Made by a program: the position numbers and the translations under genes
The notes under the pieces: generated by a model
What the model saw: only the letters and a program-made list of their open reading frames with translations
What the model was told of the DNA's origin: nothing
The model's database searches: none
DNA from: a virus
Direction: 5' to 3' (one strand)
IMG/VR virus record: IMGVR_UViG_3300034159_000063
Location: 1-27,862 of that record
DNA: 27,862 bases
Shown here: positions 4,204-27,370 of the stretch, piece after piece
Numbering within the stretch: the first letter of the stretch is position 1
Layout: the number at the start of each line of letters is the position of its first letter

Positions 4204-4413
4204 GTGTCGAAGGAACTGAACTGGTTGCTCGGCCAGGCCCTCTGGGGGATGCAGACGGCGATTATCAACGTCGAGTCGGAGCGCGCCGAGAAGGTGCTCC
4301 ACGTGCTGAGCGCCGGCCAGGAGATCGTGGAGGTCGAAGGGCGCCGCTGGGCCATCTGGTACGACGCCGCCGGCGAGCGCAACGCCACGCCGCTGGCCGA
4401 GGAAGGCCAGTGA
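4204..4413 (+). CDS. Hypothetical protein, 69 aa
   Basis: GTG start at 4204 with AGAGGA about 8 nt upstream. One helix (LNWLLGQALWGMQTAIINVESERAEK pattern) is followed by a compact beta part with 'EIVEVEGRRWAIWYDAAGE'. The stop overlaps the start of the GGDEF gene by 4 nt (GTGA), so the two are translationally coupled and may work together. No family recognised. Confidence 0.55.
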   Translation: MSKELNWLLGQALWGMQTAIINVESERAEKVLHVLSAGQEIVEVEGRRWAIWYDAAGERNATPLAEEGQ

Positions 4414-4955
4414 TCACCCGGGGCGCGATGCTCCAGGCGATCGCGACGCACGCCGCCGAGACGAGCGCCCTGCGCCGGCGCATCGGCGACTTGACCTGGA
4501 ACAAACAGCTCGGCTGCCCGAAGCGTGAGGCGATCGAGGAGGCGTGGTCAGCCATCGCCCACGCCGGGATGGCGATGATCTTCCTGGATCTCGACGGGCT
4601 CAACGCGCTGAACTACGCCCACGGCTACGACGCGATCGACGGGCGGATCGCCGCCGTCTGGGCGGACATCCGCCCCGGGCTGCGGGCGACTGACCCCCAC
4701 GGGCAGTGGCAGGGCGGCGATGAGTTCGTGATCGCGGCGCCGCACGCCGACGCCTACGGGCTGGCGGTGCGGGCCCAGGCCCTGCTCGGCGCCCGCGACC
4801 TGTCCGCATCGCGGGTCATCGTAGCGGCGCTGCCATGCATCGCCGCCACCGTGGCCGGCGCGTCCCACGCCCTCCGCGTCGCGCGGGGCGGGGCGCGGGG
4901 GGACGGCCAGCGCGGCGTCCTAGTCGATCGCCGCGATCAGGAGCGGACAGCCTGA
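4410..4955 (+). CDS. Small GGDEF-domain protein (diguanylate-cyclase-like)
   Basis: A 181-residue protein with one GGDEF domain (about 26-160) and no sensor domain. It has the exact GGDEF signature at 102-106. The metal-binding 'FLDLDGLN' strand has D60 and D62. N68 and D77 align with the substrate-contacting Asn and Asp of PleD (from memory of that family), in 'NYAHGYDAID' where the usual NDxxGHxxGD stands. A product-inhibition-like RxxD lies at 92-95, but six rather than five residues before GGDEF. The lysine usual after the DxD stretch is Asn here. Known family reaction: 2 GTP to c-di-GMP. Activity here is inferred. The GTG start overlaps the upstream stop. Confidence 0.7.
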   Translation: MITRGAMLQAIATHAAETSALRRRIGDLTWNKQLGCPKREAIEEAWSAIAHAGMAMIFLDLDGLNALNYAHGYDAIDGRIAAVWADIRPGLRATDPHGQWQGGDEFVIAAPHADAYGLAVRAQALLGARDLSASRVIVAALPCIAATVAGASHALRVARGGARGDGQRGVLVDRRDQERTA

Positions 4956-7742: not shown

Positions 7743-8442
7743 GCGCGGCGATCTCCCTGGAGCTGGCCGACGATGCGGGGCTGGCCTGGGCGCAGGCCCG
7801 CATCGTCGAAGATCACTACCATCGCCGATCTGCTACCTCGTCAATCACCATGCGGCGTGGGGCGCGGCAGCGGCAGCCGGGCAGCGCACCGTCGGCGTGC
7901 TGATGTTTGGCAGGCCAGAGGCGACCCGCTGCTACGTCGGCGGCCTGACCTACGGCAGCGGCGACGATGTGCGCGCTGGGCGGGCGCAGTTCGACCGTTG
8001 GGAGCTGCTGAACCTGGCCCGCATCTGGATCCATCCCTGGTTCCAGGCCGGCGGCCTCTACTGTCGAGAGGATGAACTGCCCGGATTCACCGACCGGCGC
8101 GGCATCTGGCGCAGCACCCTGGCCAGCACGGCGATCTGCGCGGCCCTGCGACAGCTCAGCTACGACTACCTGCGCATCCGCCCGCCGGTCGATTGCGCCT
8201 ACCCCTACGCGATCCGCGCCGTGCTGAGCTACTGCGACACGCGAGTCCACCGGGGCGCGATCTACCGGGCCAGCGGCTTCAGCCTGGCCCGGCGCAACGA
8301 TGCCGGGATAGAGACCTGGTGGACATCCGCCGTCGCGCCGCTGTCGGCCGAGCAGGATGCGACGATCCGCCGCCTCTCCGAGCGTTCGCCGAGATCGCAG
8401 CGCATCCGGGCGGAGCGGTCGCAGCTGGAGCTATGGCCATGA
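7739..8442 (+). CDS. Mom-like GNAT-fold DNA-modification protein, apparent frameshift
   Basis: A GTG at 7739 (overlapping the ASCH stop) opens a frame reading 'LELADDAGLAWAQARIVEDHYHR', which stops at 7903. The remainder is in the -1 frame: 'PICYLVNHHAAWG' before the GTG at 7897, then to 8442. The joined product looks like a Mom/GNAT protein: 'VGVLMFGRPEAT', 'DRWELLNLARIWI', and near the end 'VLSYCDTRVHRGAIYRASGF', the acetyl-CoA-fold motif of the Mom family. Known role of the family: modifying adenine in phage DNA against host restriction. The shift lies about 7812-7842 and contains no slippery heptamer, so it is either a real indel or a sequence error. If translation starts only at 7897, the first strand and helix are missing. 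Confidence 0.6.
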
Positions 8443-10790: not shown

Positions 10791-10964
10791 ATGCTAAGCG
10801 TCTCACAGGTAGCGGAGCGTCTGAACATCTCTGAGCCCGTGGTGCTGCGCCTTATCAGGAAAGGCGAGCTGCTGGCCTTCCGCGTCGGGAACGAGTATCG
10901 CATCGAAGAGGAGGCCCTGTCCGCCTACCTCGCACGGTCGGCGACTCGCCCGGCCACGCATTGA
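10791..10964 (+). CDS. Excisionase-family helix-turn-helix protein, 57 aa
   Basis: The ATG at 10791 has AAAGGAG 6 nt upstream. 'MLSVSQVAERLNISEPVVLRLIRKGELLAFRVGNEYRIEEEALSAYL' in short segments is a textbook excisionase-type (MerR-like) winged HTH: helix-turn-helix, then 'RKGELLAF' wing and 'YRI' strand. It lies near the integrase and has its own consensus promoter. It could be the excisionase or a small regulator. The stop codon TGA lies inside the next promoter block. Confidence 0.75.
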   Translation: MLSVSQVAERLNISEPVVLRLIRKGELLAFRVGNEYRIEEEALSAYLARSATRPATH

Positions 10965-10979
10965 TCGCCGTGCTATGCT
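10957..10979 (+). promoter_or_regulatory. Recurrent promoter block (extended -10 TGCTATGCT)
   Basis: CGCATTGATCGCCGTGCTA (10957-10975) is identical to the block at 20982-21000, 10 kb away. Here it is followed by TGCT to complete TGCTATGCT (10971-10979). It overlaps the stop codon of the excisionase-like gene. There is no -35 box at 17 bp, so recognition is probably by the TGn-extended -10. Confidence 0.7.
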
Positions 10980-11021
10980 GAGGCTACCGCCGCGCCGACC
11001 GTGCGCTGTTTCCTGTCCGCC

Positions 11022-12980: not shown

Positions 12981-13082
12981 CCCCGCCCCCCGGCGCGACG
13001 TGGCCCCTCGGCGCCCCGCCCCGGTGTCTCTGCCCGCGATGCGACCCGGCGCCGCTCAGCGAGGCGCACAGCAAGCCGGGGC

Positions 13083-13102
13083 CTTGCGCGGCGTGCTATG
13101 AT
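13083..13102 (+). promoter_or_regulatory. Recurrent promoter block, TGCTATGAT variant
   Basis: CTTGCGCGGCGTGCTATG (13083-13100) is repeated exactly at 13178-13195. The -10 here is TGCTATGAT (13094-13102). It lies 30 bp before the long stem-loop at 13132. Confidence 0.6.
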
Positions 13103-13131
13103 GCGGCATCGATAGCCTACTCGACAAGACG

Positions 13132-16130: not shown

Positions 16131-16865
16131 ATGAGCGACACCACGCCACAACCTACGACCCCGCTCACACCCCAGGAGCGCTACGACGCGGCGCTGGCCG
16201 CGCTCCAGGCGAAGCAGCGCAAATTCGTCGCGCACTACCTGGCCAGCCTCAACGCCAGCCAGGCGGCCCGGCAGGCCGGCTACAGCGAGAAGACCGCCGG
16301 ACAGATCGGCTACCAGCTACTTCAAAAAACTTCAATCTCCACAGCCGTTTCCGCCGGCATGGCCCTCCAGGCGATGCCCGCTGAGGAGATCCTGGCCCGC
16401 CTCAGCGCCCATGCGCGGGGCGACATGGGCGACTTCCTACGGGTCGATGAAGAGGAAATCCAGGTTTCATGGTCGGTACTGGAGCTGCCTGCCGACCGTG
16501 ACGGGAACCCGGACCTCTCAGGGACGATCTACGACCTGGCCAAGCAACAGATCGTGAAGCCGACCCAGCGAATCCTGCACACGGCGACGGTCACGCGATC
16601 CGTCGCCCGGCTCGATCTGCTGGCGGCCGGGAAGGCCGGGAAGCTCGGCCTGGTCAAGAAGTACAGCCTCGACGAGGACACGGGCAAGGTCGGCATTGAG
16701 CTCTACGATGCACAGGCCGCGCTGGCGAAGCTCGGCGAGCATCAGGGCCTCTGGGGCAAGGGGGCCGACATCCTCAAGCTGATCGACCTGTCCAAGCTCT
16801 CGCCAGAGCAGCTGGAGCGCATCGCCAAAGGAGATGATCCGCTTGCTGTCCTACTCGACAAGTAG
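16131..16865 (+). CDS. terS: Terminase small subunit, 244 aa
   Basis: The start is the ATG at 16131 (GAGG 5 nt upstream), and not the in-frame ATG at 16110, which has no ribosome site. 'KQRKFVAHYLASLNASQAARQAGYSEKTAGQIGYQLL' is the classic helix-turn-helix of terminase small subunits that bind the packaging site, with the N-A-S-Q-A-A-R-x-A-G-Y core. 'MALQAMPAEEILARLSAHARGDMGDFL' follows, as in the family. The C-terminal half is larger than in minimal small subunits. It overlaps the large-subunit start by 32 nt. Confidence 0.88.
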   Translation: MSDTTPQPTTPLTPQERYDAALAALQAKQRKFVAHYLASLNASQAARQAGYSEKTAGQIGYQLLQKTSISTAVSAGMALQAMPAEEILARLSAHARGDMGDFLRVDEEEIQVSWSVLELPADRDGNPDLSGTIYDLAKQQIVKPTQRILHTATVTRSVARLDLLAAGKAGKLGLVKKYSLDEDTGKVGIELYDAQAALAKLGEHQGLWGKGADILKLIDLSKLSPEQLERIAKGDDPLAVLLDK

Positions 16866-18264
16866 CCTTCAGCTGCGCGCCCAGGCCGAGCTGGAGCGCC
16901 GGCGCCGTGTGAGCGCATCGCCCAAGGAGCCGGGCGGCGATCTCGCGGCCTACGTCGAGTCGACGACCCCGCTGCGCCTTGAGCCCTGGCAGCGCATCCT
17001 CACCGCCCGCCTTGGGCAGCTGCGCCACCAGGTCGGCCAGCGCCTGCTGATTCACGGCCCGCCCCAGTTCGGGAAGTCGATCATCATCAGCCAGCGCTTC
17101 CCGGCCTGGCTGCTGGGCGAAGCCCCGCTTCGGCGCGTACGCATCGCCTGCTACAATGTGAGCCACGCGATCCGCTTCTCCGGCGTCTGCCTCGATCTGC
17201 TGCGCGAGACGGCGCGGGGCGATGCATCACCGCCCGCCGTCGCCAGCAAAGAGGAGTGGTCAACGCGGGCAAGGATGGGCCTGCGCGACGCCAACCCGAG
17301 CATGAAGGCCCTCGGGCTCGGCACGGGATTCACCGGCCTCGGCGTGGATGACCTGATCATCGACGACCCCTACAAGAATGCCCAGGAGGCCAGAAGCCCG
17401 GCCCACACGGTGATGCTGCACGACTGGTGGCAACAGGTCGTGCTGAGCCGGCTCAACCCGTCAGCCAACGCGGTCGTGATGTTCCACCGCTGGTGGGAGG
17501 GCGACTTCGCCGGGTGGCTGATTGAGCAGGGCGGCTGGGAGGTGCTGCGCTTCCCGGCGCTGGCCGATGGCGGCCCGGATGACCCCACGGGCCGTGCCAT
17601 CGGCGAGCCGCTCAGCCCGCGCTTCGATGCCGCCTTCCTGGCAGACAAGCGAGCGAAGATGGGTACGGCGTTTGAGGCCATGTACCAGGGAACGCCCTAT
17701 CCCGCCGAGGGCGCGATGTTTAAGGCGGGCAAGGCGCAGTTCGTGGATGTCGCGCCGGCTGGCGATGATGTGCAGTGGGTGCGGCGCTGGGACGTGGGCG
17801 CCACGGCGGGCGCGGGTGATTACACGGTCGGCGTGCTGATGTGGCGCACCGGAGCGGGGCGCTACGGCGTGGCCGACGTGGAGCGCGGGCAGTGGGACAC
17901 CGATGAGCGCGACGCGAAGATCAAAGAGACCGCCGAGACCGACCGCAGCGCCGGCCGCCACGTGCTGCACCTGCTGCCGCAGGACCCGGGCGCGGCCGGC
18001 AAGAGCCAGGCGCTCGCCTTCACCCGCCTGCTCGACGGGTTCTGGGTCGATACCGAGATCGAGACCGGCGACAAGGTAACGCGGGCTGACCCGCTCAGCT
18101 CACAGTGGAACGCCGGCAACGTGGACATGGTGCGGGCGCACTGGAACAAGGCGTTCCTCGACGAGCTGCTGGCGTTCCCGCGCGGGCGCAATGACGACCA
18201 GGTAGACGGCGGCAGCGGCGCATACAACCGCCTCGCCACCGCAGGAGGCTGGGGCCTTGCCTAA
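16834..18264 (+). CDS. terL: Terminase large subunit, 476 aa
   Basis: ATPase domain: Walker A 'GPPQFGKS' at 75-82 and Walker B 'DDLIIDDP' at 172-179. Nuclease domain (RNase H fold, about 310-470): 'WVRRWDVGATAGAGDYTVGV' with the first Asp and 'NDDQVDGG' near the end. It cuts concatemeric DNA and powers packaging. The ATG at 16834 has its AAAGGAG directly adjacent (too close), so a TTG at 16843, 9 nt past that site, is an alternative start. Shares 32 nt with the small subunit gene. Confidence 0.9.
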   Translation: MIRLLSYSTSSLQLRAQAELERRRRVSASPKEPGGDLAAYVESTTPLRLEPWQRILTARLGQLRHQVGQRLLIHGPPQFGKSIIISQRFPAWLLGEAPLRRVRIACYNVSHAIRFSGVCLDLLRETARGDASPPAVASKEEWSTRARMGLRDANPSMKALGLGTGFTGLGVDDLIIDDPYKNAQEARSPAHTVMLHDWWQQVVLSRLNPSANAVVMFHRWWEGDFAGWLIEQGGWEVLRFPALADGGPDDPTGRAIGEPLSPRFDAAFLADKRAKMGTAFEAMYQGTPYPAEGAMFKAGKAQFVDVAPAGDDVQWVRRWDVGATAGAGDYTVGVLMWRTGAGRYGVADVERGQWDTDERDAKIKETAETDRSAGRHVLHLLPQDPGAAGKSQALAFTRLLDGFWVDTEIETGDKVTRADPLSSQWNAGNVDMVRAHWNKAFLDELLAFPRGRNDDQVDGGSGAYNRLATAGGWGLA

Positions 18265-20344
18265 CGAAAGCTATCTCATCACCGACGGCATCAAGGCCAT
18301 CCCCTTGTCGGCCCTGCCCGCTGAGGCGTGGTCCCCCGTCGATCCGCTCGACGCCGGGGGCTCTGAGACCTCGGCGCGCCGCCTGCGGGCCGCCGTGCCC
18401 GTGCTCTCGCGCTGCCTCGATGTGCGCGCCAAGGGCGTCGCCTCAGTGCCGATGCGCCTGGAGCGCGGCGGAGACGACATCGCCGACACGCCGGAGGGCC
18501 GCGCCATCCTGGCCACGCTGCGGGCGCTGATGTATCGCTCCGAGGTGGGTCTATGCATGAGCGCGGCGGCCTACTGGGAGCTAGGCACGAACCGGCTAGG
18601 GAGGCGCCTCACGCCGTTCTGGTGCGCCACCGGGAGTGTCACCGAGACGCGCGACCCGGACACGGGCGACCCGACGTTCTACCGCACCGGCGTGCGCAGC
18701 GGGCGAGCCCTGGGCGTCATTGACCCGCGCCGCATCGCGCCGATCTACCTGCCCAGCGACGAGGTGGACATCGGCCCCGATCCGCAGGTGGCGCCGGTGC
18801 GCCCGGCCCTGGCCAGCGCCGGGCTGCTGCGCGGGCTCGACGCCTACAGCTCGGCCTTCTTCGCGCGCGGCGGCGTCAAGATCACGCTGCTTCAGCTGGA
18901 CTCGTCGCTGCCCAAGACCGAGCGCGACAAGCTCAAGGACTGGTGGGATCGGGCGATCCGGGGCGTGCGCTCGGCCTTCTCCTCCCTGGTAATCAGTAAC
19001 AAGGTGGAGCCCAAGGTCATTGGCAGCGACCCCAAAGACACGGCGGCGCCCGAGCTGCAGAAGGCTGGGCGTGAGGACGTGGCGGCCGCCATGGGCGTGC
19101 CCATGTCGATGCTGTACAGCTCCGCTCTGGCCGGGGGAACCGCCGACGCCGAGCGGCTCAACTTCTTCGAGCAGACCATCTTCCCCGAGTCCGACCTGAT
19201 CATCCCCGTGGCCAATGAGCGCTGGCTGGCGCCGCAGGGCATGGAGATCATCGCCGACTACGACCGGCACGAAGTCAGGCAATGGGCCTTCGCCCAGCGC
19301 GCCGAGGCCATGGTCAAGCTGACGGCTGGCGCTGCCACCCTGACAGTCGACGAGGGCCGCGCCCGGCTGGGCCTGCCGCCGATGGAGAAGCCGCCCACGC
19401 CACCACCACCCGCCGCGCCAGCGGCGCTGCCCGGCCCGCCCGGCGCGCCCCCACAGCTGCCGCCGCCCAGCGATGCGCCGCCCGATGCGCTGCCCAGCGA
19501 CGCGCCCGCCACGAAGGCGCTGGCCCTCTGGCAGGCGAAGGCCCTCAACCGCCTGCGCCGCGGCCGCGCCGCCGCCGTCGGCTTCGACGATGAGGCCCTC
19601 GACCCCGAGGAGGCGGCGATCATCGCCGAGCGACTGCGCGGCGCAACGACTCCCGAGGCGATCAAGAAGGCCTTCGCCGTGCCGCCCCCAGGAAGCGACC
19701 TCAGCGAGGCTGAGCGCGCCGTGTACGATGCCCTGCGCCCGGTGCTCGAGCGCTACGGCCCGAAGGCCGCAGAGGCCCTGCTGCGCGGGGAGGGCCTCGA
19801 TACATCGGCGTTCAGCGCCGAGCTACGGGCCGCGCTGGCGTCGGCCCTGCTGCCCCTGGTGGCATCGGGCGCAATGGATCTCGCCGCCGGCGTCGGGCCG
19901 GCGATGGACGCCGCCTTCGCCGCCGGGCTCAGTGCATCCTACGCGGAGGCCCTCGGCCAGCGGATCGCAGGCATCACGGACACGACCCTGAAGGCTGTCC
20001 AGAAGGCGCAGGCGCTCTATCGCACGACGCCGGGGATGACCAGGGGGCAGCTAGAGCAGCTGCTTCAGTCCAGCTTCTCACCCAGGCGCGCCGAGAGCAT
20101 CGCGATCACTGAGACCAGCAACGCTGCCGCCGTTGCTGCGACGTATACCCAGCGCTACCTGGCTGAGCACGGGCTCACGTTCGTGCGGCGCTGGAACGCG
20201 AGCAACGATGAGAGGATGTGCCCCATCTGCGGGCCGCTGAACGGCAAGACCGAGGAGGTCTGGAAAGACCGCTTCCCCGACGGCCCCGCCGCCCACGTTC
20301 GCTGCCGGTGCTGGCTGACCCTGGCACCCACAGAGGAGGGCTGA
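18257..20344 (+). CDS. Portal protein fused to a Mu gpF-like minor head domain, 695 aa
   Basis: TTG start at 18257 with AGGAGG upstream, overlapping the terminase stop. Residues 1-370 are an HK97-type portal: 'PVLSRCLDVRAKGVASVPMRL', 'YPxxI'-like 'DPRRIAPIYLP', the pore-region 'AAAMGVPMSMLY', and 'AERLNFFEQTIFPE'. Residues ~370-420 are a Pro-rich linker. The C-terminal ~100 residues are a Mu gpF-like head-morphogenesis domain: 'ETSNAAAVAATYTQRYL', 'FVRRWNASNDERMCPIC' and 'HVRCRCWL'. Separate genes in most phages; here one frame with no internal stop. It would couple the DNA-entry ring to a minor head protein. Confidence 0.85.
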   Translation: MPNESYLITDGIKAIPLSALPAEAWSPVDPLDAGGSETSARRLRAAVPVLSRCLDVRAKGVASVPMRLERGGDDIADTPEGRAILATLRALMYRSEVGLCMSAAAYWELGTNRLGRRLTPFWCATGSVTETRDPDTGDPTFYRTGVRSGRALGVIDPRRIAPIYLPSDEVDIGPDPQVAPVRPALASAGLLRGLDAYSSAFFARGGVKITLLQLDSSLPKTERDKLKDWWDRAIRGVRSAFSSLVISNKVEPKVIGSDPKDTAAPELQKAGREDVAAAMGVPMSMLYSSALAGGTADAERLNFFEQTIFPESDLIIPVANERWLAPQGMEIIADYDRHEVRQWAFAQRAEAMVKLTAGAATLTVDEGRARLGLPPMEKPPTPPPPAAPAALPGPPGAPPQLPPPSDAPPDALPSDAPATKALALWQAKALNRLRRGRAAAVGFDDEALDPEEAAIIAERLRGATTPEAIKKAFAVPPPGSDLSEAERAVYDALRPVLERYGPKAAEALLRGEGLDTSAFSAELRAALASALLPLVASGAMDLAAGVGPAMDAAFAAGLSASYAEALGQRIAGITDTTLKAVQKAQALYRTTPGMTRGQLEQLLQSSFSPRRAESIAITETSNAAAVAATYTQRYLAEHGLTFVRRWNASNDERMCPICGPLNGKTEEVWKDRFPDGPAAHVRCRCWLTLAPTEEG

Positions 20345-20830: not shown

Positions 20831-20989
20831 ATGAGCGAGCAGGAGCGCAAGGAGCTTGAAGACGCCTTGCGGCAGGCGATCAGCCTCGTGCGCTCGCTGG
20901 CCCGCGCGCTGGGCAAGCCCTGCCCCATCGCCAGCCGGGAGGAGCGCAGGGAGGAGCGGCGCGAGCGCACGGTAACGCCGTCGCATTGA
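20831..20989 (+). CDS. Small basic coiled-coil protein, 52 aa
   Basis: The ATG at 20831 follows the upstream stop by 2 nt. A single helix (ERKELEDALRQAISLVRSLARAL), one CPIAS turn, then an Arg/Glu-rich tail (REERREERRERT) that looks like a solvent-exposed helix. Its stop TGA lies inside the promoter block at 20982. No family recognised. Confidence 0.45.
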   Translation: MSEQERKELEDALRQAISLVRSLARALGKPCPIASREERREERRERTVTPSH

Positions 20990-21004
20990 TCGCCGTGCTA
21001 CACT
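20982..21004 (+). promoter_or_regulatory. Recurrent promoter block, TGCTACACT
   Basis: CGCATTGATCGCCGTGCTA (20982-21000) is identical to 10957-10975. The -10 reads TGCTACACT (20996-21004). It overlaps the preceding stop codon and is followed after 36 nt by a strong terminator. Confidence 0.7.
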
Positions 21005-21039
21005 GTAGCTAATTCGTTCGCGCCCTACGCTGAAAAGCC

Positions 21040-21084
21040 AGCGGCGCATCTGCCCCTCGTGGGCGGGTGCGCCGCTTTTTCTTT
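21040..21084 (+). terminator. Intrinsic terminator in the leader of the DdrB-like gene
   Basis: AGCGGCGCA (21040-21048) with TGCGCCGCT (21068-21076), inner stem GCCC/GGGC, then TTTTTCTTT. It lies between the promoter block at 20996 and the ATG at 21092. Read with that promoter, it would end a short RNA of about 75 nt, or act as an attenuator for the head operon. Confidence 0.85.
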
Positions 21085-21091
21085 GCCACCT

Positions 21092-22927
21092 ATGCCGAAC
21101 CCACACGCCAGCCTCCAAAACCCGAAGCTCTACCGCACGCTCCGCCGCAAGGGCCTGAGCAAGGCGGCGGCGGCGCGCATCTCCAACGCCCGCACGCCGG
21201 GGCACACGGTGAAGGCGCGGCGGGCCGGCGTGGGCGCGGCGTGGAAGGCCCACGAGGATTGGCTCGACGGCATCGGCGACGCCACGAAGCGCGTCCCCAC
21301 AGGTCGCAGCGGCTACGTGCGCGACGCCCAGGGCCGCTTCGCCCGCACGGCGGGGTCGGCGTCCCGCTCCGAGGCCCGCGCGACGCTGCTGGGCGCCCAC
21401 GCCGAGGCCAGGGCCGCCCAGCGCACCACGCACGCCAGCGAGCGCACGGCCATCAGGGAGCGCCACGCCGCAGAGCGCGCCAGCGGGGCAAGCACCGCCG
21501 CCGGGCGCGCCGCAGAGCGCACAGCGCTGAAAGAGCGCCACGCCAGCGAGCGCGGCGGCCTGCGCCAGGCCCACGCCGAGGCGCGTAGGGCCATGTCGGC
21601 GCAGCACGCCAGTGAGCGCATCGCCGAGTCCTCGCAGGCGCTGCTGGAGCGGCGCAAGCCGGCCACTGAGGCGACAGTCACCCGCGCCTATGGCACCGAC
21701 CCCAACACCAGCTACGAGCTACGCCACCGCCTGGTGGACATGTCCGAGATCCAGGCCAGCAACACGGCCAGCGGTGGGATCAACCCGAAGTACGACCCGG
21801 CGCTTCAGCCCCGCGATCGGAGCCGGCAAGCCAGCCAGGCGCAGATCGACGCCGTGGCCCGCAAGCTCAACCCCGACGCCCTTGTCACCGATTTCCACCA
21901 GATCGACAAGGGCGCGCCGATCATCGACTCATCGGGAAACGTGCTATCTGGGAACGGGCGCACCCTGGCACTTCAGCGCGCCGCCGATATGCATCCCGAT
22001 GTCTATGACTCCTACAAAGCCAAGCTCAAAGAGCACGCCAAAGAGCTTGGCCTTAACCCCTCCGAGATCGACGCGATGAAGCACCCGGTCCTGGTGCGCG
22101 AGCTGACCGGCGATCACGACACCGCCGCCTTTGCCCGCGAGGCGAACAGCTCGGGCACGCTGCGCATGTCGCCGATGGAGCAGGCGAAGGTTGACGCCGG
22201 CCAGATCACCGACGCGCACATGCTCAGCTTCCACGTGAAGGAAGACCAGAGCATCGACCACGCGCTGCGCGATCCCGACAACCGGGCCTGGGTCAATCGG
22301 TTCATGAAGAGCATCCCGGAGAATGAGGCGGCGAACCTCAAGACTCGAGACGGCGATCTGAACCAGATGGGCCTGTACCGGGCGAAGGCGGCGATCTACA
22401 CCAGCGCATTCCCCGGCGCGCACGGCGAGCGTATGGCCGAGTCGATGCTGGAGTCGATCGAGCCAGACATGAAGAGCATCCAGAACGGCATCTCTGGCGC
22501 CCTGCCCGGCCTGGCCCGCGTCCGGGCGCAGACCCACAGCGGAGAGCGCGACCCGTCGCTCGACCTGACGCCCGATATCGCCCGCGCGGTTGACGACCTC
22601 GCACGCATCAAGGCCGCGCCGCAGTACGCGAAGCTCCCGGCGAGCCAGCGGGTCTCACAGCATATCGAGGCGTCGCGGCACTCATCGGTGCATCTCGGCG
22701 GCGAGCATATCAGCGAGGAGCACGCGCGCCTGCTGACCCACCTGGACAGCATCGGCAACAAGCCGGCCGCCGTCCGCACCTTCCTCCAGAAATACTCCGA
22801 TCTTGTCGATGGCCAGCCGTCGCCTCGGCAGAGCGGCCTCTTCGGCGGCGAGCGCATGACCAGGGCGCAGCTGCTCGACAGCCTGCTAGGCACGGCCCAG
22901 CCAGCCGCGCAGGGGAGCATGTTCTAA
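21092..22927 (+). CDS. DdrB-like ParB-fold virion/polyvalent protein, 611 aa
   Basis: The N-terminus 'NPKLYRTLRRKGLSKAAAARISNA' is a short phage-type helical motif. Residues ~95-190 are a long Arg/Glu/His-rich helix with repeated ERHAxER motifs (coiled coil). Residues ~200-480 hold the DdrB-ParB domain: 'QIDAVARKLNPDALVTDFHQI', 'GAPIIDSSGNVLSGNGRTLAL' with the diagnostic GNGR at 287-290. This domain is described in phage 'polyvalent' proteins that are packed or injected. No Shine-Dalgarno is visible before the ATG at 21092. It follows the terminator by 7 nt. Confidence 0.65.
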   Translation: MPNPHASLQNPKLYRTLRRKGLSKAAAARISNARTPGHTVKARRAGVGAAWKAHEDWLDGIGDATKRVPTGRSGYVRDAQGRFARTAGSASRSEARATLLGAHAEARAAQRTTHASERTAIRERHAAERASGASTAAGRAAERTALKERHASERGGLRQAHAEARRAMSAQHASERIAESSQALLERRKPATEATVTRAYGTDPNTSYELRHRLVDMSEIQASNTASGGINPKYDPALQPRDRSRQASQAQIDAVARKLNPDALVTDFHQIDKGAPIIDSSGNVLSGNGRTLALQRAADMHPDVYDSYKAKLKEHAKELGLNPSEIDAMKHPVLVRELTGDHDTAAFAREANSSGTLRMSPMEQAKVDAGQITDAHMLSFHVKEDQSIDHALRDPDNRAWVNRFMKSIPENEAANLKTRDGDLNQMGLYRAKAAIYTSAFPGAHGERMAESMLESIEPDMKSIQNGISGALPGLARVRAQTHSGERDPSLDLTPDIARAVDDLARIKAAPQYAKLPASQRVSQHIEASRHSSVHLGGEHISEEHARLLTHLDSIGNKPAAVRTFLQKYSDLVDGQPSPRQSGLFGGERMTRAQLLDSLLGTAQPAAQGSMF

Positions 22928-24372
22928 TGACACTTCCCCCCGTCCCCAAGCGCACCAGCTACGCCGACATCGGCGCGGACGATCTGACGTTCGCCCTGTT
23001 CTACGACCGCATCGCCCCGAGCGACGCGCTCAGCGACACCACGGAGCCCCCTATGCCTGCTACCAAAGCCTCTCGCCGCCACTCCGCCGCCGACGAGGCC
23101 GCGCTGAAGGCGTGCCGCACGCACCTGGTGAGCGCGAACAAGGCCCTCGACGATGCGGGTGCGCCCGACGCCGACGGCGACGGCATCCCCGACAGCCAGG
23201 AGGCCGCAGTGAAGGCGGTGCCCGGCATCGCCCCCGACGCCCACGGCGGCGCCATGGCATGCTTCGTCACGTCACAGGAGACCCAGGCCCTGCTGCGCGG
23301 GCTGCTGCCGGCGGAGCTACGGGCCGACAGCGAGGCGGATCATCTCACGATCGCCTACCTCACAGAAGACGCCGAGTCCTGCGCCGACTGCAAGGGCGCG
23401 CTGCTGCGCGGGCTCGTGGCCGTGGCCGAGAGCGGCGGGCCGATTGTGGGCACGCTGGGCGGCCTGGCCCGCTTCCCGGCCAGCGAGACCAGCGACGGCA
23501 TGGATGTGCTCGTGGCTCTCTTCGACGCCCCCGGCCTCGACGACCTGCGCGTCGCCGTGATGGACGCCGCGTGCTGCGCTGAGCTTGATCCGCCGATGGA
23601 GCACGGCTTTATCCCCCACATCACCCTGGCATACATCGACCCCGCCGAGCCCACGCCCGCGATCACGATGGGGCGGGATCCGCTGACCTTCGACGCGATC
23701 AGCCTGGTGTGGGCTGGGGAGCGCATCGACATCCCGCTGTCGGGCGAGGGCGACGACTACGAGGCCGAGGATGACGGCGAGGGCGATGGCGACATGGGCG
23801 GCATGGCGATGGGCGGCATGGCGCAGGCCCCAACCGCCGAGATCAAGATGCTGGCCGACGGGCGCCTGCTCATCCCCGGCATCCGCTACGGCGGGCGCGA
23901 TCTCGTGGGGGATACCTTCACGAAGTCCACCGACCTGGGGATGGCGCGCAGCTTCGTGGGCATGCCGGTCTACTACGACCACGCCCAGCGCGGCATCAAA
24001 TCGCAGATCGGCCATGTGGCGGCCTACCAGCCAACCGACGATGGGATCGACTTCTACGTCGAGCTGGATCGCAGCCACAAGTACAAGGCCACGATCGAGC
24101 GCCTGTATTCCGAGAAGGCGCTGGGCGGCACAACGGGCGCCCTCCCCCACCTGGTGGTGCGAGAGGGCGGCGAATTGAAGCGGTGGATCCTCGGCGAGCT
24201 GAGCGTATCCCCTACGCCGGCTGAGCCTCGAAATATCCCCGGCACGCAGGCGCCGACGAAGGCCGCCCCGGAGGCGTCGCAAGGCGCGGCGGGCGGCGAG
24301 CTGGCGCGAGTGCTGGCAGCGACAACCAACGGCTTTCTCGCGTATCGGCTCCGCAGCCGCTACGGCAAGTGA
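22927..24372 (+). CDS. 2H phosphoesterase domain fused to a prohead-protease-like domain, 481 aa
   Basis: Residues ~81-92 form an EF-hand-like loop (DADGDGIPDSQE). Residues ~108-272 carry two HxT motifs, H139-L-T141 ('DHLTIAYL') and H231-I-T233 ('FIPHITLAYI'), the signature of 2H phosphoesterases (2'-5' RNA ligase/cyclic phosphodiesterase fold). After an acidic linker (273-300), residues ~303-437 look like a prohead-maturation protease: 'LVGDTFTK', 'YYDHAQRGIKSQIGHVAAY', 'WILGELSVSPTPAEPRN'. The place of the usual Ser ('SSGA' in relatives, from memory) reads T-T-G-A here. It lies directly before the capsid gene, as a protease would. The ATG overlaps the upstream stop. Confidence 0.65.
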   Translation: MTLPPVPKRTSYADIGADDLTFALFYDRIAPSDALSDTTEPPMPATKASRRHSAADEAALKACRTHLVSANKALDDAGAPDADGDGIPDSQEAAVKAVPGIAPDAHGGAMACFVTSQETQALLRGLLPAELRADSEADHLTIAYLTEDAESCADCKGALLRGLVAVAESGGPIVGTLGGLARFPASETSDGMDVLVALFDAPGLDDLRVAVMDAACCAELDPPMEHGFIPHITLAYIDPAEPTPAITMGRDPLTFDAISLVWAGERIDIPLSGEGDDYEAEDDGEGDGDMGGMAMGGMAQAPTAEIKMLADGRLLIPGIRYGGRDLVGDTFTKSTDLGMARSFVGMPVYYDHAQRGIKSQIGHVAAYQPTDDGIDFYVELDRSHKYKATIERLYSEKALGGTTGALPHLVVREGGELKRWILGELSVSPTPAEPRNIPGTQAPTKAAPEASQGAAGGELARVLAATTNGFLAYRLRSRYGK

Positions 24373-24381
24373 GGACACACC

Positions 24382-25614
24382 ATGCCCGCAGAACTCTCCG
24401 ACATCCAGTCCCTCATGGAGGCCCAGCAGACGGCCTTCCTCAAGGTCCTCGACGACCGCGACGCCGCGATCAACGCGCGCCTCAAGGCATTCGAGGATGC
24501 GCCCGCGCTCAAGAGCAGCGGCTTCATCACCCAGGACGGCGGGGCGAACGACCCCGAGATTAAAAACTTCGCCGACTTCCTCAAGGCGGTGCAGCGGCGC
24601 GACCATAAGCGCCTGAGCGCCGTCTACAAGACCGGCTGGCAGGAGTACGGCGGCGAGGCGGTCAAGGCCCTCAGCGAGGGCAGCGGCCCCGCCGGCGGCT
24701 TCGCGGTTCCTGTGACCTACGAGACCGAGATCTCGAAGATCGAGGCGACGATCGCCTTCTTCGAGCCGCTAGCCTTCCAAGTCACCATGGCCAGCGACAC
24801 GCACAAGTTCACCATGCTCAAGCAGACCGGCAACCCCAGCAGCAGCGGCGTGGGCGCGTCGGGCTACTTCGGCGGCATGTACTTCACCATGACCGCCGAG
24901 GGCGGCACGATCACCGACCGCACGCCGGAGTTTGAGCAGGGCACCCTCCAGGCCCGCAAGCTCACCGGGCTGAGCGTGGCTAGCAGCGAGATCCGCGAGG
25001 ATGCGCCGCAGATCGAGCGCGAGCTGATGACGATCTTCGCCGAGGGCCTGGCTACCGCCAAGCAGTACCTCTTCCTGCACCACAACGGCGTCGGCGGCCC
25101 GCTGGGCGCGCTGAGCGCGGCGAACCCGGCGCGGCTCCTGGTGACGCGCAAGGCGACCGGCAACGCCATCGAGATCGCCGACGCGGCCGGGCTGATCGCC
25201 AGGATGATCCCCTCGCTCGCGGGCGGGTCGATCTTCATCACCCACCCGTTCGCCATCGAGGATCTGATGCAGCTCAGCCTGGTGACCAACGGCGACCCCG
25301 CGTTCATCCCGGCCAGCGGGCAGGCGCCCGGGTCGCCGCTGCTGGGCACGCTCATCGGCAAGCCCGTGTACAGCGATGAGTTCGCGGCACTGCCCGGCAG
25401 CCCGGGCGACCTCTCGCTCGTGTCCCCCCGCGCCTACGCCGTGGGCACCCGCTCGGGCACGCTCATCCAGGGCTCGGAGCATGTGCGCTTCGACAGCGAC
25501 CAGTACACGTGGCGCGTCACGACCCGGCTCGATGGCCAGCCGCGCATCGACGGCACCTTCAAGCTGGCCGACGGGAGCAACTCGGAGACCTCCGCCTTCT
25601 GCGTCCTGAACTAG
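24382..25614 (+). CDS. Major capsid protein, HK97 fold, 410 aa
   Basis: N-terminal helical delta region (about 1-95, with 'LMEAQQTAFLKVLDDRDAAINARLKAFE') that a maturation protease would remove. The main HK97 features follow: 'GGFAVPVTYETEISKIEATIAFFEPLA' (N-arm and E-loop strand), a P-domain spine helix 'EIREDAPQIERELMTIFAEGLATAKQY', and 'LSLVSPRAYAVGTRSGTLIQGSEHVRFDSDQYTWRVTTRLDGQP', the usual C-terminal A-domain. It builds the icosahedral head. AGGACAC precedes the ATG at 24382. Confidence 0.88.
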   Translation: MPAELSDIQSLMEAQQTAFLKVLDDRDAAINARLKAFEDAPALKSSGFITQDGGANDPEIKNFADFLKAVQRRDHKRLSAVYKTGWQEYGGEAVKALSEGSGPAGGFAVPVTYETEISKIEATIAFFEPLAFQVTMASDTHKFTMLKQTGNPSSSGVGASGYFGGMYFTMTAEGGTITDRTPEFEQGTLQARKLTGLSVASSEIREDAPQIERELMTIFAEGLATAKQYLFLHHNGVGGPLGALSAANPARLLVTRKATGNAIEIADAAGLIARMIPSLAGGSIFITHPFAIEDLMQLSLVTNGDPAFIPASGQAPGSPLLGTLIGKPVYSDEFAALPGSPGDLSLVSPRAYAVGTRSGTLIQGSEHVRFDSDQYTWRVTTRLDGQPRIDGTFKLADGSNSETSAFCVLN

Positions 25615-25667: not shown

Positions 25668-26135
25668 ATGCACGATAGATTCCGCGACCGCGTGGCGATC
25701 ATCGGCCGCGTCTCGCCCAACGCGCTCGGGACGGGGACGGTGGCCAGCGATGTATTCGACTTCTCAAAGTGGCGGCGCGTGGTTGCCGTGCTGGCCACGG
25801 GCGACGTGGGCAACAACGGCACGGTGCAGGTCGCGGCCTACGCCGTGGCCGCCAACGCGGCCAGCGGGGGCACGGCGATCAGCGGCAAGACCTTCACTGC
25901 ATCCACCTTCACCGGCTCAGGCAGCGGCACGGCGGGCGGCAGCTACCACGAGGGCGTGCTCGAGGTCACAGACATCGAGGCCAAGGCCGCGCTGAACACG
26001 GCGCGCTACGGCTACTTCACCCTCACCGTGGCCACGGCCACGAGCGACGCCACGCTGATCATCCTAGGCGTCGACGCACGCTACGAGCCTGCGAGCGGCA
26101 GCGACCTGGGCAGCGTGGCCGAGATTATTAGCTAG
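25668..26135 (+). CDS. Probable head decoration or minor structural protein, 155 aa
   Basis: The ATG at 25668 has GGAGG 9 nt upstream. Gly/Ser/Thr/Ala-rich beta protein: 'ASDVFDFSKWRRVVAVLATGDVGNNGTVQVAAYAVAAN', 'GKTFTASTFTGSGSGTAGGSYHEG', 'NTARYGYFTLTVATATSDATLIILGVDARYEP'. Directly after the capsid gene, so a decoration or stabilising protein is likely. The sequence alone does not fix the family. Confidence 0.65.
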   Translation: MHDRFRDRVAIIGRVSPNALGTGTVASDVFDFSKWRRVVAVLATGDVGNNGTVQVAAYAVAANAASGGTAISGKTFTASTFTGSGSGTAGGSYHEGVLEVTDIEAKAALNTARYGYFTLTVATATSDATLIILGVDARYEPASGSDLGSVAEIIS

Positions 26136-26141
26136 GCAGCC

Positions 26142-26828
26142 ATGATCGACTATCGGATCAGCCGAAGAGCGAAGGTGGGGCGCGGATGCGTCTTCGCCCC
26201 CTTCGCGATCATCGCCGACGGCGTCGAGCTGTGCGACGGCGTGACCGTCGAGTCCGGCGCCGTCGTCGGGCGCGTGAGCGTGCGTGGCCTCACCGCGCGA
26301 GACCCCGGCCCGCCGCAGCTGACCCTCGTGGGCGCCGGGACACACATCGGCTGTCACGCCGTGATCTACGCGGGCGCGCTCATTGGCGAGCGCTGCCTCA
26401 TCGGCGACGGCGCAAGCATCCGCGAGGGCTGCGTGCTCGGAGCGGACGTGCGGCTGGCCACCGGGGTCAGCGTCAACTACGAGACCCTGATCGGCGCGGG
26501 AACCGTCGTGATGCAGGGCACGCACCTCACCGGGCGGATGAAGATCGGGCGGGGCTGCTTCATCGGCCCGCTGGTGGCTACGATGAACCACCAGGAGCCG
26601 AGAAACGGCTTCGTATCCGATGAGGTGCGCGGCCCGACCATCGGGGACGGCGTGCTCATCGGCGGCGGAGCGTGCATCCTCCCCGGCGTGACCATCGGCG
26701 ATGGGGCAGTGATCGGCGCCGGCGCGATCGTCACCAGGGATGTCCCGGCGGGCGCGACCGTGCTGGGCCAGGCCGCCCAGCTGCGCGACGATACGGCCAC
26801 GAAGCCGGGGAGGAAGGTGCGGCCATGA
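26142..26828 (+). CDS. Left-handed beta-helix acyltransferase, 228 aa
   Basis: Repeated hexapeptide motifs of the [LIV]-G-x4 type run through the protein: 'VGRGCVFAPFAIIADGVELCDGV', 'IGCHAVIYAGALIGERCLIGDGA', 'IGDGVLIGGGACILPGVTIGDGAVIGAGAIV'. The loop 'GPLVATMNHQEPRNGF' contains the His that is catalytic in sugar O- and N-acetyltransferases, and 'VTRDVPAGATVLGQAAQ' is the typical C-terminal end. It is probably a sugar acetyltransferase using acetyl-CoA. The two glycosyltransferase-like genes that follow point to a sugar cassette for glycan or virion modification. Confidence 0.8.
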   Translation: MIDYRISRRAKVGRGCVFAPFAIIADGVELCDGVTVESGAVVGRVSVRGLTARDPGPPQLTLVGAGTHIGCHAVIYAGALIGERCLIGDGASIREGCVLGADVRLATGVSVNYETLIGAGTVVMQGTHLTGRMKIGRGCFIGPLVATMNHQEPRNGFVSDEVRGPTIGDGVLIGGGACILPGVTIGDGAVIGAGAIVTRDVPAGATVLGQAAQLRDDTATKPGRKVRP

Positions 26829-27370
26829 CACGCCTGATCATCCTCACGATGGCGCTGCGCCCCGCTGGCGTGCTGCGGGCGGCCGAGAGCGTCGCCGCCG
26901 CAGTGGCCACATCGCCGTGGCCACTGGAGCACCGCATCGTGTGGCACCAGGGCGAGCCCGACCCCACGCGCGTGCGGGTGGCCGAGCGCGTCACACAGGC
27001 GCTGGCCGAGCTACCGCCCGACTCGTGGGTGTTCGCCGTGGACGATGACAACCTGTTGCACCCCGATCTGCCCCGGCGCCTAGCCGAGCAGCTCGGACGC
27101 ACGCCCGACGCCCTGGCCGTCGTCTTCGGCCAGATGCACGAGTCGGTGCCCGCGTGCCTCCGTCCAACGCTGCCGCCCACGCCGGGGAAGATCGACGGCG
27201 GGCAGGTAGCGATCCGCGCCGACTATGCCGCGCTCATCCCCTGGAAGCCCGGACCAATGGGCGACGGCGCGTATCTAGCAGCGCTCTACGCTCGTGCGCC
27301 GGATCACTGGGCCGTCTGCTACCAATTTGATGAGCCGCTGAGCTACCACAACGCGCAGGTGTGGCTATGA
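26825..27370 (+). CDS. Glycosyltransferase-like protein, 181 aa
   Basis: The ATG at 26825 overlaps the upstream stop. It has a GT-A-like pattern: an opening 'RLIILTMALRPAGVLRAAES' strand-helix, 'HRIVWHQGEPDP', and a DxD-type motif in 'SWVFAVDDDNLLHPDLPRRLAEQLGR' followed by 'ALAVVFGQMHES'. 'MGDGAYLAALYARAP' fits the acceptor side. Only the compact core of a GT2-like enzyme is present, so it may be an unusual or degenerate member. Donor and acceptor unknown. Confidence 0.6.
   Translation: MTRLIILTMALRPAGVLRAAESVAAAVATSPWPLEHRIVWHQGEPDPTRVRVAERVTQALAELPPDSWVFAVDDDNLLHPDLPRRLAEQLGRTPDALAVVFGQMHESVPACLRPTLPPTPGKIDGGQVAIRADYAALIPWKPGPMGDGAYLAALYARAPDHWAVCYQFDEPLSYHNAQVWL

Follow-up and report, generated by a model that had tools for sequence, protein, structure and literature searches.

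A 2H phosphoesterase domain fused to a capsid maturation protease-like domain in a phage head gene module

A fusion gene between the portal and capsid genes

The 27,862-nucleotide stretch of viral DNA considered here (positions 1 to 27,862 of IMG/VR virus record IMGVR_UViG_3300034159_000063; hereafter the window) carries on its + strand, at 22927..24372, an open reading frame (ORF) of 481 amino acids with an ATG start, in which a 2H phosphoesterase domain (residues ~105-275) is followed by a domain of the capsid maturation protease type (residues ~306-437). The limits of this ORF, and the places of two HxT motifs within it (HLT at residues 139-141 and HIT at 231-233), are exactly those given in an earlier interpretation of the DNA from its letters only (the sequence-only reading). 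The ATG overlaps the stop codon of the upstream ORF (TAATG), and the gene lies between those for the portal and the major capsid protein, as expected for an HK97-type prohead protease.

The head module runs in the order terminase small and large subunits, portal-MuF fusion, a 159-residue ORF, DdrB-like ParB protein, 2H-protease fusion and capsid protein. The + strand encodes the terminase large subunit (16834..18264; PF17289; phrog_38, E=2.3e-63), the portal-MuF fusion (18257..20344; PF04860, E=6.7e-23; PF04233, E=1.1e-11), the 622-residue DdrB-like ParB protein (21059..22927; PF18763, E=2.1e-30) and, starting 10 bases 3' of the fusion ORF, the 410-residue HK97-type major capsid protein (24382..25614; PF05065, E=8.7e-22; TIGR01554, E=1.4e-34), in which a ~100-residue N-terminal region precedes the capsid fold. 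DdrB-like ParB domains are of a type that occurs in polyvalent, head-packaged proteins, and the fusion ORF itself has the arrangement by which polyvalent effectors are recognised, i.e. an effector domain joined to a head protein within the late module. The window covers only part of a genome, public contig L230 running ~10 kilobases (kb) further right; the head genes of contig L103 are identical to those of the window across the coding regions compared. No match to the PADLOC-DB defence-system models was found among 10 window ORFs, and a scan of bacterial genome contigs returned no close relatives of the full fusion protein.

The fusion gene reads visibly as a mosaic. Its leader (residues 1-42; 22927..23052, +), disordered in the predicted model, shares homology with the beginning of the MuF gene (L136:6469-7275) of the IMG/VR contig L136 (regional E 1.3e-9). 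There follow a helical 'TKASRRHSAAD' segment shared with relatives (residues 46-80; 23062..23166, +), the 2H domain, an acidic, Gly- and Met-rich linker (residues ~276-303; 23752..23835, +) that is mostly disordered, with a predicted local distance difference test score (pLDDT) of ~69 falling to 36, and the protease-like domain. In dozens of relatives the protease ORF, or else the gene directly before it, contains the motif of residues 46-58 (TKASRRHSAAD). The core of this motif, KASRRHS[EA][SA]D (window 23062-23094; L003-L072), is strongly conserved in dozens of phages and could be a head-targeting or cleavage signal. In some relatives, the gene upstream of a protease-capsid gene (L003:3700-5061 and similar) encodes, near the place taken in the window by the 2H domain, a Cys-rich domain (GANGAHY..C..CVFY..GxCEIV.G..C.LWIIPE).

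Assignment of the 2H domain

The 2H domain (23239..23751, +), recognised from Pfam and PHROG matches, an AlphaFold2 model and comparison of that model with known structures, contains the two HxT motifs, H139-L-T141 (23341..23349, +) and H231-I-T233 (23617..23625, +), spaced by about 90 residues as the 2H superfamily requires. Because at least two HxT motifs also occur in ~12% of shuffles of the fusion protein, the motif pair alone is weak evidence. The Pfam family PF13563 (2_5_RNA_ligase2) matches the window protein with E=1.2e-4 and 22.6 bits, under its curated cut-off of 27 bits; it matches the near relative encoded by L136 with 48.4 bits, and all 96 scanned ORFs (the window and 95 others) at E <= 0.01. 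PHROGs 14859, 2659 and 18402, which are 'RNA ligase' or 'head maturation protease' families, match the same domain at ~1e-11 to 1e-14.

The sequence-only reading had staked its proposal on conservation of the HxT residues in homologues, and they are conserved. Across 11 aligned phage 2H domains, ten of them sharing 25-34% identity with that of the window, the invariant columns are only the H, T, P, H and T of the two motifs. Peptide patterns for the 2H part retrieved only two near-identical contigs from IMG/VR, and the broad set of homologues came from a scan with a degenerate DNA pattern for motif 2 only (HG[FY]xPHxTLxY), which recovered 118 ORFs with a profile match. In motif 1, which was not used in fetching, His is present in 116 of 116 rows covering the motif and Thr in 115 of 116. 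This conservation, together with the fold match described below, led us to reject chance occurrence of the HxT pair; assignment of residues ~105-275 as a 2H phosphoesterase is secure, and the active site is conserved and intact.

Conservation on this scale also bears on the suggestion that the 2H part serves in binding or assembly (as a scaffold, or a binder of RNA or nucleotides) and that its catalysis is irrelevant, the fusion reflecting mosaicism in a crowded head module. The visible mosaicism of the ORF, with its MuF-gene leader, KASRRHS segment, 2H domain and protease, would suit such an origin, as would the frequency of gene fusions among phage head genes (PMC7302621); that domains so diverged keep both HxT motifs almost without exception is, however, expected for catalysis and not for a scaffold, and we regard a purely structural role as very improbable.

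Predicted fold and kinship

AlphaFold2, applied to residues 100-285 with 56 sequences, predicted the two-lobed 2H fold with a pLDDT of 91.9. Comparison of this model with the PDB gave as the best match the cyclic phosphodiesterase (CPDase) of D. radiodurans (drCPDase, Z 17.6), followed by T. thermophilus TT0787 (Z 16.8), E. coli LigT (15.5) and human Usb1 (15.5), with viral 2'-5' phosphodiesterases (Z 12-13) and Acb1 (7T26, Z 10.6) lower; Foldseek agrees with this ranking. Sequence profiles likewise matched archaeal and bacterial CPDases (E 2e-12 to 3.5e-11) ahead of LigT (4e-4) and Acb1 (2e-3). Sequence and predicted fold thus both place the domain nearest the LigT/CPDase branch, with Acb1 more distant, and homology, conserved motifs and a model matching CPDase and LigT bear out the 2H phosphoesterase originally proposed. 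The likeness to LigT/ThpR and drCPDase has its limits: after the second HxT the window domain reads HITLAY where these enzymes read HITLAR or HITLGR, Tyr236 (nearly invariant as Tyr among the phage relatives) occupying a position at which solved CPDases carry Arg, so that the strict LigT/ThpR pattern HITLxR is absent; and, unlike the LigT/ThpR CPDases, the phage domain sits inside head proteins.

Acb1 of phages T4 and FBB1, to whose anti-defence role the sequence-only reading had linked this ORF, belongs to the 2H superfamily and has the same HxT/HxT tetrad (PMC9117128), and shares the fold; its solved form is a small free protein with no head fusion, having an aromatic nucleobase pocket (Y12, W74, F107, W147), E141 and a C-terminal lid (PMC9117128). 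One could accordingly propose that the window enzyme is an Acb1-like protein acting against the cyclic-oligonucleotide-based anti-phage signalling system (CBASS), or an enzyme of the anti-CRISPR-type-III kind, and that it would hydrolyse cyclic oligonucleotide alarms in the producing cell or once injected. The shared tetrad, the structural match to 7T26 and weak matches to the Acb1 family PF23474 in 20 of the 96 ORFs (E <= 0.01; 16.3-18.3 bits where scores were shown) argue for this proposal, against which stand the clearly better sequence and fold matches to LigT and CPDases and the lack of any PF23474 match to the window protein itself up to E=1 (family cut-off 27 bits). We consider a role of this kind unlikely, and the specific anti-CBASS function finds no support, the nearest relatives being LigT/ThpR-type RNA 2',3'-cyclic phosphodiesterases. 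Membership of the Acb1 family was rejected on the missing PF23474 match and the weaker structural match to Acb1 than to the CPDases.

The same kinship suggests RNA-end healing, in which the enzyme, at the start of infection or late, would act on tRNAs or mRNAs that host anticodon nucleases or toxins have cut, opening their 2',3'-cyclic phosphates. The nearest solved relatives are indeed RNA 2',3'-cyclic phosphodiesterases, and many phage 2H domains have been assigned to RNA repair (PMC9503650, PMC7824862). Set against this, the window ORFs scanned, which do not represent a whole genome, revealed neither an RNA ligase nor a tRNA gene; PMC5512222 describes 2H domains of the polyvalent type as never seen with RNA ligases; and packaging would be unusual for an RNA-repair enzyme. 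RNA healing is therefore, to our minds, an improbable account too. On kinship only, CPDase-like chemistry on 2',3'-cyclic or 2'-5' bonds would be favoured over ring cleavage of the Acb1 kind.

The protease-like domain and Thr402

That the 2H domain precedes a domain of the capsid-maturation type, as the sequence-only reading held, is confirmed by homology: residues ~306-437 (23842..24237, +) share 52-63% identity with the N-terminal domain of ~550-residue proteins from many IMG/VR phages, the C-terminal part of which is an HK97-type capsid protein, and in the window the HK97-type capsid gene comes next. The conserved residues comprise His 352, a GxSTG-type motif at 400-404 and an ELS motif at 424-426 (H352, T402 and E424 being the marked positions in the window), a pattern that fits head-protease families. 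L009 and L316 are matched by PHROG families for head maturation proteases, and L093 and L146, more distant relatives of the domain, by Peptidase_S78, weakly. Outside the 2H part, the best structural match to the full-length model was the varicella-zoster virus (VZV) protease, a middling one (Z 7.2, 3.3 A over 103 residues) that aligns residues 310-436, where the pLDDT is mostly 64-92; it is no more than suggestive of an assemblin-like fold, and we do not rely on it.

At the presumed nucleophile position the window encodes Thr402 (codon ACA, 24130..24132, +), where relatives have Ser. Ser occupies this position in 100 of 101 unique rows, a set that was partly fetched with a Ser pattern, and in all 78 of the relatives fetched earlier without that pattern. 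A scan of IMG/VR with the Thr form returned, within this protease family, only the window lineage; Thr402 is common to the window and two public contigs, which are near-identical and so represent a single lineage. Of the His and Ser expected in an HK97-type prohead protease, H352 is thus kept and Ser replaced. From the motif and general knowledge (PMC7411985), Ser would be the catalytic residue of the window-type family. With Thr402 the protease half might then be slow or inactive, the 2H part staying joined to it, trapped intact in the capsid and ejected, with the protease serving as a packaging handle; we hold this version to be doubtful. The Thr-for-Ser change would offer a natural test of whether carrying cargo needs an active protease.

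2H domains joined to head proteins in other phages

To place the fusion in context, near copies were removed at 80% identity, leaving 99 non-redundant 2H ORFs, and these were compared with portal, MuF, protease and capsid profiles seeded from the window and from annotated phages. A recognised head domain was present in 45 of the 99, a lower bound in that Pfam detects proteases missed by the custom profiles (L155). Portal domains account for 25 of these, proteases for 19 and MuF alone for one, in the architectures portal-2H (17), portal-2H-MuF (8), 2H-protease (16, of which the window lineage is one), 2H-protease-capsid (2), MuF-2H-protease (1) and 2H-MuF (1). Scans with Pfam, covering 96 ORFs in two sets, agree on the head fusions, the leading head families being Phage_portal, Peptidase_S78, Peptidase_S78_2, Mu-like_Pro and Phage_Mu_F. 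In isolates, free-standing 2H genes lie beside or between the portal/MuF, protease and capsid genes, and Streptomyces phage YDN12 has MuF followed by 2H within a long fusion protein. The 2H gene of Gordonia phage ChisanaKitsune (L087:4223-5311), in the head module, adjoins a gene annotated as a VIP2-like ADP-ribosyltransferase.

Portal fusions of the 2H domain are therefore no rarer than protease fusions, which has a bearing on the cyclic-oligonucleotide alarms considered above. An interaction between a prohead protease, that of phage Bas13, and a CBASS sensor has been reported, as cited in PMC12409349; this makes the pairing of such a protease with a 2H domain intriguing and lends the anti-CBASS proposal some further support; the frequency of portal fusion, however, indicates no special connection between protease and CBASS.

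On a tree of the 2H domains, 18 changes of protease label are needed, of which strongly supported branches force only 2. The protease halves belong to several families and both domain orders are seen; together with the changes on the tree, this suggests, without proving, that the 2H-protease fusion arose repeatedly.

The closest overall relative, encoded by L136, is a single 896-residue 2H-protease-capsid chain, its 2H domain the closest to that of the window (42% identity) and its protease of the window type. L136 and L158 (both IMG/VR) share with the window the order 2H then protease and the type of protease and, unlike the window, have the capsid protein in the same chain; their protease nucleophile is Ser, in place of Thr402. 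L136 also encodes, like the window, a DdrB-like ParB domain, there fused to the portal (L136:3065-6469), the gene lying directly after that for the 2H-protease-capsid protein and followed by the MuF gene. Among isolates, gp18 of Arthrobacter phage Salgado and gp87 of Kharcho, annotated 'RNA ligase', have a 2H domain then a head protease, as in the window, and lie just 3' of portal and MuF-type genes; they differ from the window in their protease half, an XkdF-type domain (Peptidase_S78_2) with a GYSIGG/GFSIGG serine motif. The Gordonia 'head maturation protease' proteins of PHROG 18402 (e.g. Ailee gp17), encoded upstream of the capsid gene, also contain 2H, in an order reversed with respect to the window, the protease-like part being N-terminal and the 2H domain in the middle, whilst Gordonia phages Mutzi and Jambalaya have a separate 2H gene between the protease-like and capsid genes. 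Public annotation thus already contains 2H-protease examples under other names, and in many isolates genes called 'RNA ligase' or 'head maturation protease' contain a 2H enzyme with an intact active site.

Possible loading of the 2H enzyme into the head

The idea of a packaged and injected 2H enzyme is essentially published for fusions to MuF and portal. Iyer et al. (2017; PMC5512222) report polyvalent proteins in which a 2H domain is joined to MuF or portal, suggesting that it acts as an RNase or against signals, and a 2022 survey of NAD-ADP-ribose systems (PMC9503650) takes 2H-MuF and 2H-portal fusions to suggest packaging and injection against oligonucleotide signalling. The window resembles these polyvalent proteins in having a head fusion in the late module and, in its DdrB-like ParB neighbour, a further polyvalent domain; the carrier here is instead the maturation protease. 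The main texts of both papers make no mention of a 2H-protease fusion, and we found no text describing one.

Fusion to the head protease is probably a way of loading an enzyme into the particle. The protease-like module and the helical segment upstream would carry the 2H enzyme into the procapsid as the head assembles. The enzyme would remain there, either cleaved free or still joined to the protease, until ejected along with the DNA. Early in the next infection it would then act, through metal-independent HxT/HxT catalysis, on a phosphodiester of the 2',3'-cyclic, 2'-5' or cyclic-oligonucleotide kind, its target being either an RNA end or a defence signal. If fully active, the protease could destroy the 2H part or drive it out; weakened by Thr402, it could leave the two joined. 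Taken as a whole, i.e. as a catalytically competent CPDase-like enzyme that is brought into the head by the protease module, kept, ejected with the DNA and active early, this account seems to us about evenly balanced between right and wrong.

What the analysis shows is the domains, the conserved active site, the fold, the place within the head module and the repeated joining to head proteins; catalysis, entry, retention, ejection and target are inferences. Entry into the head, one part of the sequence-only reading, is plausible because related 2H domains recur in head proteins, and the L136 and L158 polypeptides unite 2H and the shell protein in one chain. There are precedents in T4, whose Alt and internal proteins are cut by the head protease, remain inside and are ejected (PMC7411985), and in P1, whose DdrB and prohead protease were found in purified virions (PMC9024508). 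The other part of that reading, retention and delivery of the 2H enzyme, finds no such support in the window, and several points tell against the loading account as a whole. Head proteases commonly digest themselves and leave the head. It is equally possible that the enzyme works late, in the cell that makes the particles, and Tyr in place of Arg after the second HxT may give it a specificity different from that of the CPDases. We found no virion proteomics or biochemistry for the window protein or any relative. Were these 2H enzymes to travel in the particle, many phages would arrive with a ready enzyme against RNA damage or nucleotide alarms, in place before phage gene expression.

Other features of the window

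In the early region, an ORF of 181 residues (4410-4955) encodes a GGDEF domain with an intact GGDEF motif (PF00990, E=7.4e-7). The sequence-only reading had joined this gene to the 2H gene as a sign of nucleotide-signal manipulation; the GGDEF gene is there, but it lies ~18 kb upstream in another module, and no tie between the two was found that would support a functional link. At 7897-8442 the Mom DNA-modification family (PF25680) matches weakly (E=1.6e-4, under cut-off). Between head genes, 26142-26828 encodes a hexapeptide-repeat acyltransferase-like protein; in the otherwise near-identical contig L103/L002, ~0.5 kb stands in place of window 26126-27347, as if an extra gene had been inserted. 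Similar 30-base-pair (bp) repeats (CGCATTGATCGCCGTGCTA...) at 10957-10986, 13080-13109 and 20982-21011 have 70-87% identity to the first, and one of them lies ~50 bp upstream of the DdrB-ParB gene; they are possibly promoters. Near the left end, 239-322 consists of 21-bp tandem repeats (CTCTGATCTTTTTGTCGGAGC).

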